Part shown: one piece after another, positions 53,984 through 57,478 of the stretch
Layout: each line of letters starts with the position of its first letter
Numbering within the stretch: position 1 is the stretch's first letter
Assembly: GCF_914271545.1 (NCBI RefSeq)
Contig: NZ_CAJZAH010000001.1
Coordinates: 1,302,001 to 1,366,000, forward strand
Direction of reading: 5' to 3'
From: Cupriavidus respiraculi
GTDB taxonomy: Bacteria; Pseudomonadota; Gammaproteobacteria; Burkholderiales; Burkholderiaceae
Length of the DNA stretch: 64,000 nt
Translations under genes and position numbers: made by a program
The notes under the pieces: generated by a model
What the model saw: the letters and a program-made list of their open reading frames with translations, nothing else
The model's database searches: none
Told to the model about the DNA's origin: nothing

Positions 53984-54547
53984 TCAGGGCCGCAATATCG
54001 CCATGGCCGGTGCGCCATCGGCACCGGTGTGCCGGCGCAGCAGCGGCAGCTCCGGCGCCGTGGCGACGCCCTCGAGCCGCAGCAGCGCGCGCTTGCGATC
54101 CGTGCCCCCGGCATAGCCGGTCAGGTCGCCGGCGGCGCCGACTACCCGGTGACAAGGCACCATCACGGACAAGGGGTTGCGCCCCACCGCGCCGCCGACG
54201 GCGCGCGCGTGCGTGGGGGGCAGGCCCAGCTCCGCGGCGAGGGCGCGGTACGAGACCGTCGCACCGAACGGAATGCCAGCCAGCGCCTGCCATACCGCCT
54301 GCTGGAAGGCGGTGCCGGACGGATGCATCGGTACGGAGAACCGCTGCCGCACGCCGGCGAAGTATTCGGTCAGTTCGTCCGCGGCGCGGTCAAGCAATGC
54401 CCGGTTGCCAGGCGCGTGCGCATCGGGCTGGACCACGTCGGGCGGATAGTATTTCTGGCCGGTGAAAAACACGCCGGTCAGCCGCTCCTGCCTTGCCCGC
54501 AGCAATACCTCGCCAAGCGGGCTGGCAACGATGCGATAGCTATTCAT
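53984..54547 (-). CDS. ogt: Methylated-DNA--protein-cysteine S-methyltransferase
   Basis: 187 residues. The alkyl-accepting cysteine is C132 in VPCHRVVG, with the HTH arginine finger in RALAAELGLPPTHARAVGGA and the N-terminal ribonuclease-like domain. It removes O6-alkylguanine and O4-alkylthymine by transfer to itself. Its start overlaps the stop of the Ada-AlkA gene in ATGA (54544-54547), so the two are translated together. Typical Ogt length is about 170-190. Confidence 0.94.
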   Translation of the reverse strand: MNSYRIVASPLGEVLLRARQERLTGVFFTGQKYYPPDVVQPDAHAPGNRALLDRAADELTEYFAGVRQRFSVPMHPSGTAFQQAVWQALAGIPFGATVSYRALAAELGLPPTHARAVGGAVGRNPLSVMVPCHRVVGAAGDLTGYAGGTDRKRALLRLEGVATAPELPLLRRHTGADGAPAMAILRP

Positions 54548-56001
54548 GTCGGCTCTCCTGTCTGAATGTCCTGGTAGCGCTGCCACACGTGCATGGCGGC
54601 GTAGGCGCGCCACGGCGCCCAGCGCGCCGCGTGCTGCTTCATCGCGCCGATGGTGTGGATGCCCAGCGTCTTGCGCAGCGCATAGTCGGTGGTAGGAAAG
54701 GCGTCGGGCCAGCCCAGCGCGCGCATCGCGATGTACTGGGCGGTCCAGTCGCCCACGCCTTCGATCGCGCGCAGCCGCGCCACGGTCTCCTCCGGCGGCG
54801 CGCTGGGATCCAGTGGCAGACGCCCCGCCTCGACCTCGCGGGCGATGGCGGCGATGGCCCGCCCCTTGGGCGCCGATACGCCGGCGGCGGCCCACTGACC
54901 GCCGGCCAGCGACGCGAGGCTGCCCGCCGTGGGAAAGCACCGCAGCAGCGAACCCGCCGGCGTGGGCAGCGGCGCGCCGTGGCACCGCGCCAGTTCGGCG
55001 AGAATCGCCCGGGCCTGCCGGACCGAGATCACCTGGCCCACCACGGCGCGCACCGCGATCTCGAAGCCGTCGACCGCCCCGGGCAGCCGCATGCCGGGCG
55101 TGGCATCGGCCAGGGCACCCAGGTGGCGGTCGACGATATCGGGCCGGCAGCCCAGGTCGCACAGCCGGCGCACCCTGCCCAGCGCCTGCGGAATCGCATG
55201 TGCCAGCGAGCCGGACAGCGTGACGCGCAGCACATGGCGCTGGGGCACATCGGCGATCCGGACCCAGCCGGCATGGCGGCGGCCGCCGCTTTCCAGAGCC
55301 AGCGTGCGGGCATAGTGGCCATCGGCGACGTGTTCGACGCCCTGCACCGCACGCGCGGCGAGAAAGTCGAGCCACGCCTGCCAGGCGAAGGGCGGGCGGT
55401 AGCCGAGCTCGAACACCAGCTCGTCGGCCGGCAGCCCGCCGTCCGCGCGCTTGCGCATCGCCGTGGGCGCCAGACCGTAGCGCGACTTCAGCACGTCATT
55501 GAAACGTCGCACGCTGCCGAAGCCGGAGGCCAGCGCCACCTCGGTCACCGGCAGCGCCGTATCCGTCAGCAGCCGTTTTGCCAGCAGCAGCCGTTGGGTC
55601 TGGGCATATTCCAGTACAGTTACGCCGAACTGGGCGAGGAACAGCCGGCGCAGATGGCGCTCCGTCACGCCGATTCGCGCGGCCAGCGCCGCGACGCCCG
55701 CCTCGGCCATGAAACCCTCGTCGATCAGCATGGCCGCCGCCTGCGCGAGCCTGCCGGACAGTTCGGCGGCACCCTGCCCGGGGGCCAGTTCGGGGCGGCA
55801 GCGCAGGCAGGGCCGGTAACCGTGTTTCTCCGCGGCGGCCGCGGTGCCAAAAAACGTGCAATTTTCCGGCTTGGGCGTGCGCACGGTGCAAACTGGCCGA
55901 CAATAGATGCCGGTCGAGGACACACCCACGAAGAAGCGTCCGTCGAACCGGCGATCGTGCGAGACGACTGCCTTGTAACATGTGTCGGGGTCGAGGTTCA
56001 T
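54544..56001 (-). CDS. Ada-AraC-AlkA fusion: methylphosphotriester sensor and 3-methyladenine DNA glycosylase
   Basis: 485 residues. An Ada-type zinc domain (C34, C38, C65, C68; FVGVSSTGIYCRPVC) with C34 as the likely methyl acceptor, an AraC HTH pair (about 75-185; AARIGVTERHLRRLFLAQFG and VTEVALASGFGSVRRFND), an AlkA N-terminal domain, and a HhH-GPD glycosylase domain with GVGDWTAQYIAMRALG and a catalytic aspartate in FPTTDYAL. It combines sensing of alkyl-phosphotriesters with excision of alkylated bases. No Ada box was recognised upstream. Coupled with ogt downstream. Confidence 0.93.
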   Translation of the reverse strand: MNLDPDTCYKAVVSHDRRFDGRFFVGVSSTGIYCRPVCTVRTPKPENCTFFGTAAAAEKHGYRPCLRCRPELAPGQGAAELSGRLAQAAAMLIDEGFMAEAGVAALAARIGVTERHLRRLFLAQFGVTVLEYAQTQRLLLAKRLLTDTALPVTEVALASGFGSVRRFNDVLKSRYGLAPTAMRKRADGGLPADELVFELGYRPPFAWQAWLDFLAARAVQGVEHVADGHYARTLALESGGRRHAGWVRIADVPQRHVLRVTLSGSLAHAIPQALGRVRRLCDLGCRPDIVDRHLGALADATPGMRLPGAVDGFEIAVRAVVGQVISVRQARAILAELARCHGAPLPTPAGSLLRCFPTAGSLASLAGGQWAAAGVSAPKGRAIAAIAREVEAGRLPLDPSAPPEETVARLRAIEGVGDWTAQYIAMRALGWPDAFPTTDYALRKTLGIHTIGAMKQHAARWAPWRAYAAMHVWQRYQDIQTGEPT

Positions 56002-56131
56002 GCGTCCATCGTACCTTGACGGAGACTCAAGACTAGCTGGAATCGGACACGCGAGCGGCGCCCGCTCCGCGCTGTCCTGGCCGCCCTCCCCTTGGCACCG
56101 CCATTAATGCTTGCCGGGGCTGGGTTTCTAA

Positions 56132-56147
56132 CTGTATATTCGTACAG
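56132..56147. promoter_or_regulatory. LexA box (SOS operator)
   Basis: CTGTATATTCGTACAG fits the proteobacterial LexA consensus CTGT-N8-ACAG, with outer symmetry ACTGTA-N6-TACAGT (56131-56148). It lies 23 bases upstream of the ATG at 56171, where it would block the promoter. Confidence 0.85.
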
Positions 56148-56170
56148 TGTTTTGTCACAAAGAGGTATGG

Positions 56171-56545
56171 ATGGCAATCGTGCGAGCTGGCAGCAAGACC
56201 GAGGCGCTCAGGCTCCTTGCGTCGAAGGATGTGCTGGCCCTTGAGCTGGACTATGAGACTGGATGGCAGGACGCCGTCGAACTTGGCCGCCTCGGCGAGA
56301 AGCGCGGCATCAAGGTGCAATACCGCGGTCAGGAAAGTATCGCGGTTCGCTCGCGCGAAGCCCTGATCGACGGGCTCGCCAAACCCAAGACCACGTTCCG
56401 GCAGCGCAACCTGTATTGCCAGTTCGATCTGGGCGCCCTGCCCGATCACGAATTGCAGGAACTGGAAGCCAAGGCCAGCCGTCTGGGCGACTACATCCTG
56501 GCGGGACACCTGCTGCGACAGATCGACGGCACCTGGCCGCAATAA
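56171..56545 (+). CDS. Uncharacterised SOS-box gene
   Basis: 124 residues from the ATG at 56171, with AGAGG five bases ahead. No family recognised. It has an alpha/beta look in the first 70 residues (MAIVRAGSKTEALRLLASKD, then DAVELGRLGEKRGIKVQYRG) and a helical C-terminus with a single cysteine (RNLYCQFDLGALPDHELQEL). No signal peptide or membrane segment. A LexA box upstream makes it a candidate damage-induced gene, and the neighbouring minus-strand genes are Ada-AlkA and Ogt. The product could be a regulator, a nuclease partner or a cell-division brake; nothing in the sequence decides. Confidence 0.75.
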   Translation: MAIVRAGSKTEALRLLASKDVLALELDYETGWQDAVELGRLGEKRGIKVQYRGQESIAVRSREALIDGLAKPKTTFRQRNLYCQFDLGALPDHELQELEAKASRLGDYILAGHLLRQIDGTWPQ

Positions 56546-56947
56546 TCCGCATGGGCCTCGTGGTCCCATCGCGGGTTCGCCGTTCGACGCGACACGCCCA
56601 ATGCCGCGTCCGGGGACGGTCTTCCGGCCACTGACTTCCGGCTGACACTTTCAGCGTATTTCCGAAAGAAAGACGTTTTTCCGCGGTTCAGCATGGGCTC
56701 TTCCATTGCAGCCCGTGTCGCATTCCGCGACCTCACCCCGCACTACCCGCTGTTCCGCACGCGCCGTCCCGCGCCGCCTCCCGTATTGCGCCCCTGCGCC
56801 GATACGGCCCCCGCATCCGGACAGCCTGCGCAAAACGACACGAACACACAGCGGGCGAGCACCGGGCCGCATGGCCGCTCACCGGGGCAACAAGAAGACG
56901 CAAGGCCGACAAGAAAAAGCAGAAACGGTCAGGAGACCCGAAACACG
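56546..56947. other. Non-coding stretch
   Basis: 402 bases. Nothing convincing as a gene on either strand. A direct repeat CTTCCGGC occurs at 56621-56628 and 56635-56642, 14 bases apart. A frame open to the regulator that follows reaches up to 56693, but its composition and lack of a Shine-Dalgarno do not support coding there. Confidence 0.4.
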
Positions 56948-57478
56948 ATGTCAGCTGATCTGTACGAAGCCAGGGAGCCGCTGGTGCGGTGCCTGAACGA
57001 GACGCTCGCGGTCTGGGAAACGACGTTGGACCGCACTCTCTCCCAATCCGGGGTATCGCTGAAGGAGTGGCGCCTGCTCGGTTATCTCGCCAGCGGCGAC
57101 CGGCTGGGACCGGCCAGCAACGACGAATCGCGGCAGACCCCGCGCGCCGCGCCGCGCGAGCCCGATCCCTGGCTCAACGCGGCCGAGTTCGAGGCGATGA
57201 TCGAAAGGCTGGAAGAGGAAGGATGGCTGGTGCGCGAGGATGCCGACGAACGCATCCGGCCGGTGCCGGTCATTGCGCAGGCGGCCAGCCAGCGCATGCA
57301 GCGCGTGGGCCAGTCCATCAAGGCGCTGCAGTCGGTGTGGGTCTCCGCGCTGAGCCGCGAGGAGCGGGCCACCATGATCACGTATCTGAGCCGGATGCAG
57401 CGCCAGCTGGATGCGTATGCGAAGCGGCGGCAGCCGAGCGAGGATGGTGCCGCGGCGGCAGATGGGGAGGAGGGTTAG
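56948..57478 (+). CDS. MarR-like winged-helix regulator
   Basis: 176 residues. The first helix (LYEAREPLVRCLNETLAVWE) and GVSLKEWRLLGYLASGD are MarR-like dimer and HTH parts, and the wing region AAEFEAMIERLEEEGWLVRE with DADERIRPVPVIAQAASQRM fits. The recognition helix is less typical because a Pro/Arg-rich segment (about residues 58-74) breaks the fold. GGAG lies about a dozen bases before the ATG. Its stop is followed by a repeated-hairpin element and then by the convergent acyl-CoA dehydrogenase gene. Confidence 0.7.
   Translation: MSADLYEAREPLVRCLNETLAVWETTLDRTLSQSGVSLKEWRLLGYLASGDRLGPASNDESRQTPRAAPREPDPWLNAAEFEAMIERLEEEGWLVREDADERIRPVPVIAQAASQRMQRVGQSIKALQSVWVSALSREERATMITYLSRMQRQLDAYAKRRQPSEDGAAAADGEEG

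Follow-up and report, generated by a model that had tools for sequence, protein, structure and literature searches.

An uncharacterised gene for a protein of 124 residues in Cupriavidus respiraculi lies behind a promoter whose −10 hexamer is embedded in a LexA-type box, and box and gene have been kept together in nearly all sampled genomes of the genus. The gene is very likely under LexA control, as judged from this arrangement and its conservation. The fuller proposal, that it is a LexA-repressed SOS gene whose product serves as a nonenzymatic accessory factor, falls somewhat short of an even chance and is put forward tentatively.

A LexA-type box overlaps the promoter of the gene

The following features were located in the window, that is, the whole stretch of 64,000 nucleotides that was analysed:

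56111..56140, + strand: sigma-70-like promoter (−35 TTGCCG at 56111-56116, −10 TATATT at 56135-56140), from a consensus scan
56132..56147, + strand: LexA-type box CTGTATATTCGTACAG, from motif scans and kept in orthologue upstream regions
56161..56165, + strand: Shine-Dalgarno-like AGAGG, read from the sequence
56171..56545 (stop codon included), + strand: protein-coding gene of 124 residues, uncharacterised family, from dN/dS, family searches and AlphaFold2

The box is the sole instance of CTGT-N8-ACAG in the window, where 0.29 sites are expected per shuffle. When the exact 16-mer was searched with up to three mismatches, it again found only itself, with 0.06 sites expected. A sequence-only reading of this DNA had described a LexA-consensus box ending 23 bases before an unrecognised gene at 56171; both are real, the gap between the end of the box and the ATG is indeed 23 bases, and AGAGG could serve as the Shine-Dalgarno sequence that had been claimed (GAGG precedes the ATG also in most of the relatives whose upstream sequence was printed). 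A consensus scan of 55950-57000 returned two promoter-like sites versus 0.2 in shuffles, and the −10 hexamer of the promoter listed above sits inside the box. The reading frame is a real coding gene, its dN/dS against eight chosen relatives ranging between 0.08 and 0.22; it has one match in its own genome.

The box is kept in all orthologous upstream regions compared

Orthologues with 73% identity or more were present in 38 of 40 sampled Cupriavidus genomes; the two exceptions, G011 (54% complete) and G023, contained copies of 65% and 68% identity only. A box was found within 200 bases at 29 of the 30 loci L001-L030. When the 260 bases upstream of 75 orthologues (including the C. respiraculi gene itself, and with some genomes repeated) were reduced to 52 distinct sequences, every one of them had kept the box; the named orthologues among the loci compared are nearly all from Cupriavidus. 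The distance between box and ATG was 24 bases in 42 cases, 23 in four, 25 in three, and 19, 26, and 196 in one each, that is, 51 of the 52 boxes fall 19-26 bases before the ATG. An alternative, longer frame (132 residues) starting with GTG at 56147 was rejected because relatives retain the ATG of 56171 while this distance varies. The 196-base case is C. basilensis KF708 (L128, 4789-5003), in which ∼170 bases of extra sequence separate an intact box from the gene, and where control may have been lost or changed. With KF708 left out, 51 promoters were aligned, and 14 of the 16 box positions were invariant, as were an A before and a T after the box. TTG preceded the −10 hexamer by 17 bases in 50 of the 51, and by one base more in the remaining one; in the window, this distance is 18 bases.

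As the box is kept in 52 of 52 regions, overlaps the −10 hexamer, and is accompanied by conserved TTG spacing, we infer that LexA represses the gene and that DNA damage induces it. Because the relatives also keep its SOS switch, the gene very probably belongs to the damage response. A palindrome arisen by chance, with the gene outside LexA control, is scarcely credible, because the 52 distinct regions keep the box amid varying flanks, however common the bare pattern is (at least one site in 26 of 100 window shuffles, and 31 sites in the genome versus 19 for the reversed pattern).

The same genomic count makes the bare motif weak evidence when taken alone. Eighteen of the 30 other sites, spread over 15 stretches, were inspected; they were selected because their cores were A+T-rich or resembled a LexA site in other ways. 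NCBIfam assigned names to eight genes in these stretches. Above the cut-off, the genes behind boxes encode RecA, ImuA, a repair-type radical SAM protein (TIGR03916), the radical SAM protein PA0069, and LexA (TIGR00498, 229 bits against a cut-off of 110.95), which has two boxes of its own, so the genome carries a LexA repressor with the same type of operator. The remaining names, with NCBIfam scores below the cut-off, are an error-prone DNA polymerase, which follows a box and whose frame is truncated where the stretch ends, and helicases resembling Rad3/DinG and UvrD/PcrA. A box at C1:1300999 (L077), ∼1 kb ahead of the window, stands 35 bases upstream of a Rad3/DinG-like helicase gene. The recA box is ∼230 bases from recA and on its other side faces a response-regulator gene. 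Two inspected sites (L078:1208 and L085) had G+C-rich or unconvincing cores and no evident SOS gene.

Two further families without a Pfam match also stand behind such boxes. An 87-residue protein is encoded by four copies in the C. respiraculi genome, each with the box present:

C2:454656 (L079)
C2:460366 (L080)
C2:631610 (L081)
C11:31869 (L088)

It was matched in 30 of 40 genomes of the genus, and 26 of the 29 best-match upstream regions contained a perfect box within 150 bases. A 120-residue protein is encoded behind two tandem boxes (C1:1210213 and C1:1210232; L076), and relatives of it occur in 60 of the 150 Burkholderiaceae genomes sampled, representing 9 of 25 genera; in many of these, the match extends across a stop close to the C-terminus, the homology having ended before it. 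This suggests that part of the SOS regulon of C. respiraculi is uncharacterised. In addition, a 131-residue protein without a Pfam match is encoded 15 bases behind a box at C2:436448 (L078), and a 128-residue frame similar to it is found near the 87-residue gene of L088.

The protein belongs to no recognised family

As had been claimed from the sequence, the 124-residue protein has no recognised family: it matched none in Pfam, NCBIfam, or PHROGs at E up to 10, and no PDB chain sequence. Pfam includes models for RecX, DinI, PsiB, and SulA; among the nine weak families matched by any of 59 relatives, none of these four was found. Structure prediction, which the sequence-only reading had proposed, gave with AlphaFold2 a confident single-domain α/β fold (pLDDT 91.9). 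Fold comparison of this model with VIA-align yielded no strong structural match, and RecX, DinI, PsiB, and SulA were not among the best 50 entries, an absence that does not argue against a shared fold. The protein is predicted to be soluble, with a mass of 14 kD, a pI of 6.7, and a mean hydropathy of −0.39. The order of strands and helices had raised the idea of an internal duplication, which was rejected because a profile comparison of the two halves scored 8.9, below each of the ten best among 100 column-shuffled controls (12.8-17.0). Phage origin was likewise rejected, as a search of a phage collection returned no match; viral contigs contained no confirmed homologue, and the lone match, a short stretch within a 1329-residue frame, was taken for chance.

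Gene neighbourhood

Two repair genes precede the gene in the window:

53984-54547, opposite strand to the 124-residue gene: Ogt (Pfam)
54544-56001, opposite strand to the 124-residue gene: Ada-AlkA (Pfam)

Pfam thus agrees with the identity of these neighbours as first named. Beyond the gene follow a 176-residue gene (no Pfam match at E up to 1e-5) and then an acyl-CoA dehydrogenase gene; the next gene on the same strand starts 402 bases on, and none lies close behind the homologue at locus L108 either. Orthologue context was compared at 36 loci with longer flanks, one of which had just 2.8 kb upstream. Acyl-CoA dehydrogenase was matched downstream at 35 of them and M16 peptidase at 31; ada was found at 32, but 3.1-3.7 kb upstream, never within 1 kb, and in 28 cases with the M16 peptidase gene between it and the orthologue. 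Partnership with Ada-AlkA was therefore rejected, and the adjacency in the window is ascribed to local rearrangement. Hence, what carries the SOS-gene reading is the presence of the box, the fact that it overlaps the −10 hexamer, and its retention in the orthologues, and not the argument from Ada-AlkA and Ogt with which the reading had been supported.

Other members of the family

In many genomes, the orthologue is accompanied by further copies, mostly of 60-70% identity and often on plasmids. The family was present in 21 of 150 Burkholderiaceae genomes (2 of 25 genera), in 2 of 300 genomes of an order sample, and in 1 of 369 of a class sample, this one being C. respiraculi itself. The 80 named-genome matches kept of 89 belong to Cupriavidus, Ralstonia, or "Burkholderiaceae bacterium 16", and 22 plasmid records with a member comprise 18 from Cupriavidus, two from Aeromonas, and two from Vibrio.

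Members below 72% identity contributed 58 distinct upstream regions, two of which contained a perfect box in their last 260 bases (L164, from Ralstonia sp. A12, and L062, from a genome taken to be Ralstonia); three of the 58 came from gamma-proteobacterial plasmids, and some of the matches were partial. Ten Ralstonia-type loci were chosen for comparison; in nine of them, which represent six different copies, the gene is preceded by an in-frame leader of the pattern MMQTGQV..MPSR, and 121-190 bases ahead of this leader begins a box that is perfect, has one mismatch, or is decayed. L059 did not match. This putative leader, between LexA-like box and core gene, was seen at L133, L138, L156, L164, L062, and L068. 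In a quick tree, 27 of whose 58 inner branches were unresolved, the four named Ralstonia copies of the leader type grouped together (SH-aLRT 88), within a 41-row clade apart from the Cupriavidus orthologues (SH-aLRT 98). SOS control may have two origins in the family, or may have been lost in the mobile copies. A scan of ten genes neighbouring the Ralstonia boxed copies revealed no common partner: five had no match, and the others matched TniQ-like, guanylate cyclase, outer-membrane efflux, CBM96, and DNA ligase families.

Proposed role of the protein

In the reading that we favour tentatively, LexA, by occupying 56132-56147, would mask the −10 hexamer and bar RNA polymerase; upon damage, RecA filaments would trigger self-cleavage of LexA, which would allow synthesis of a short message for one 14-kD soluble α/β protein. 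During damage, the latter would assist some DNA- or nucleoid-related process as a nonenzymatic accessory (binding) factor. Its gene is the chromosomally fixed representative of the family, whose remaining copies are often carried by plasmids or repeats and frequently have a gene of the H-NS family next to them. Consistent with a LexA-regulated accessory factor are the boxes before the SOS genes of the same genome, the lack of a match to an enzyme family, and the H-NS and recA neighbours of some relatives described below. Against it stand the 31 of 45 paralogue loci without a near divergent H-NS gene, and the fact that the H-NS and recA neighbours concern relatives of the gene. Strictly conserved polar residues (D27, Y28, K73, T75, Q78, R79, and D107) would also be compatible with an enzymatic role. 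Of the roles that the sequence-only reading had put forward (nuclease partner, division brake, or recombination modulator), only the last has a hint in its favour, the Vibrio plasmid homologue described below; Pfam supplied no family similarity that would point to any of the three.

RecX, DinI, and plasmid-borne PsiB are small modulators of RecA or of the SOS response, and the protein could, though this is unlikely, be another one, adjusting RecA filaments or the cleavage of LexA while being unrelated to them in sequence. Its small size, LexA control, and the plasmid location of many relatives would suit such a function. On plasmid p380 of V. coralliilyticus, moreover, a RecA gene (PF00154, E 8e-54), the plasmid's only RecA match, is followed after 92 bases by a homologue on the same strand. 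However, recA was not found on two other gamma-proteobacterial plasmids with a homologue, pFE10 and pAER-f909, and the six related plasmid recA genes inspected, out of 1161 matching records, had no family member next to them, so a recA neighbour as a rule was rejected; the absence of any Pfam match also speaks against this function. Besides RecA, strong Pfam matches among the neighbours of gamma-proteobacterial and plasmid copies were DUF7281, PHB_depo_C, and peptidase M16 (L108).

A partner or antagonist of H-NS-type silencers, whose plasmid copies would cooperate with the H-NS gene next to them and whose LexA-controlled copy would alter the silencing of acquired DNA after damage, is a rather improbable identity of the protein. 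It draws on 45 named-genome paralogue loci, 14 of which have a divergent gene of the H-NS family no more than 1.5 kb upstream, versus 0 of 35 orthologue loci; elsewhere in the ∼10-kb locus, H-NS occurred at 8 of 45 and 3 of 35, respectively. A gene for a 297-residue protein without a Pfam match follows at 6 of the 45 paralogue loci and at none of the 35 orthologue loci. In genome G023, five of seven copies belong to a dispersed unit of ∼2.3 kb consisting of an H-NS gene (PF00816), the paralogue, and the 297-residue gene; these units (L235-L239) are 90.6-91.5% identical to L237, one is interrupted, and no terminal inverted repeat was seen by eye at their aligned ends. Yet it is the LexA-controlled orthologues that lack the near H-NS neighbour, the divergent H-NS genes may merely silence the cassette, and the 45 paralogue loci come from few genera and are nonindependent. 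Equally doubtful is the broader idea that the orphan family couples DNA damage to nucleoid control, its mobile copies travelling with H-NS silencers and one fixed Cupriavidus copy standing under LexA, so that damage would change the silencing of acquired DNA (or RecA behaviour).

Several plasmid copies among the records H5-H18 bear the RefSeq label "PHA-granule associated protein 4", without visible support. A polyhydroxyalkanoate-granule protein, as this name implies, is highly improbable: Pfam and NCBIfam, searched at E up to 10, offered neither a phasin nor any other matching family, the phrase was not found in the literature searched, and SOS control would be odd for a granule protein.

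What the gene adds to the Cupriavidus SOS regulon, a conserved predicted LexA target found in 38 of the 40 genomes sampled, is solid but modest. Cupriavidus is used in biotechnology and in metal-resistance work, and the idea is directly testable. If the hints regarding H-NS or RecA were true, damage signalling would be connected with the control of mobile DNA.

Relation to known systems

Among titles and abstract openings in the literature on SOS in Cupriavidus, Ralstonia, and H-NS, none concerns the 124-residue gene; the accessible part of PMC2864759 names lexA and recA of CH34. As regards fold, an XPF/ERCC1 nuclease-like central domain is a tentative candidate for one of the nearest known systems. 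RecX, DinI, and PsiB resemble the protein in small size, in SOS control or plasmid carriage, and in one recA neighbour, but neither they nor SulA share Pfam sequence similarity with it. The part of PMC3323433 available describes a predicted LexA-regulated hypothetical gene, "hypA", in beta-proteobacteria with several chromosomes, which is like the present gene in its predicted control, the lack of an assigned function, and the bacterial group. The 124-residue family occurs in 2 of 25 genera and the 120-residue, two-box gene of C. respiraculi in 9; we infer that the latter fits that portion of the text better, and it is possibly "hypA" itself. From described LexA targets, the 124-residue gene differs in that its product belongs to no described family and its control is predicted from sequence. 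In operator type, in the overlap with the promoter, and in the occurrence of the same motif before lexA, recA, imuA, and the error-prone polymerase gene, it conforms to the beta-proteobacterial LexA regulon with its CTGT-N8-ACAG operators.
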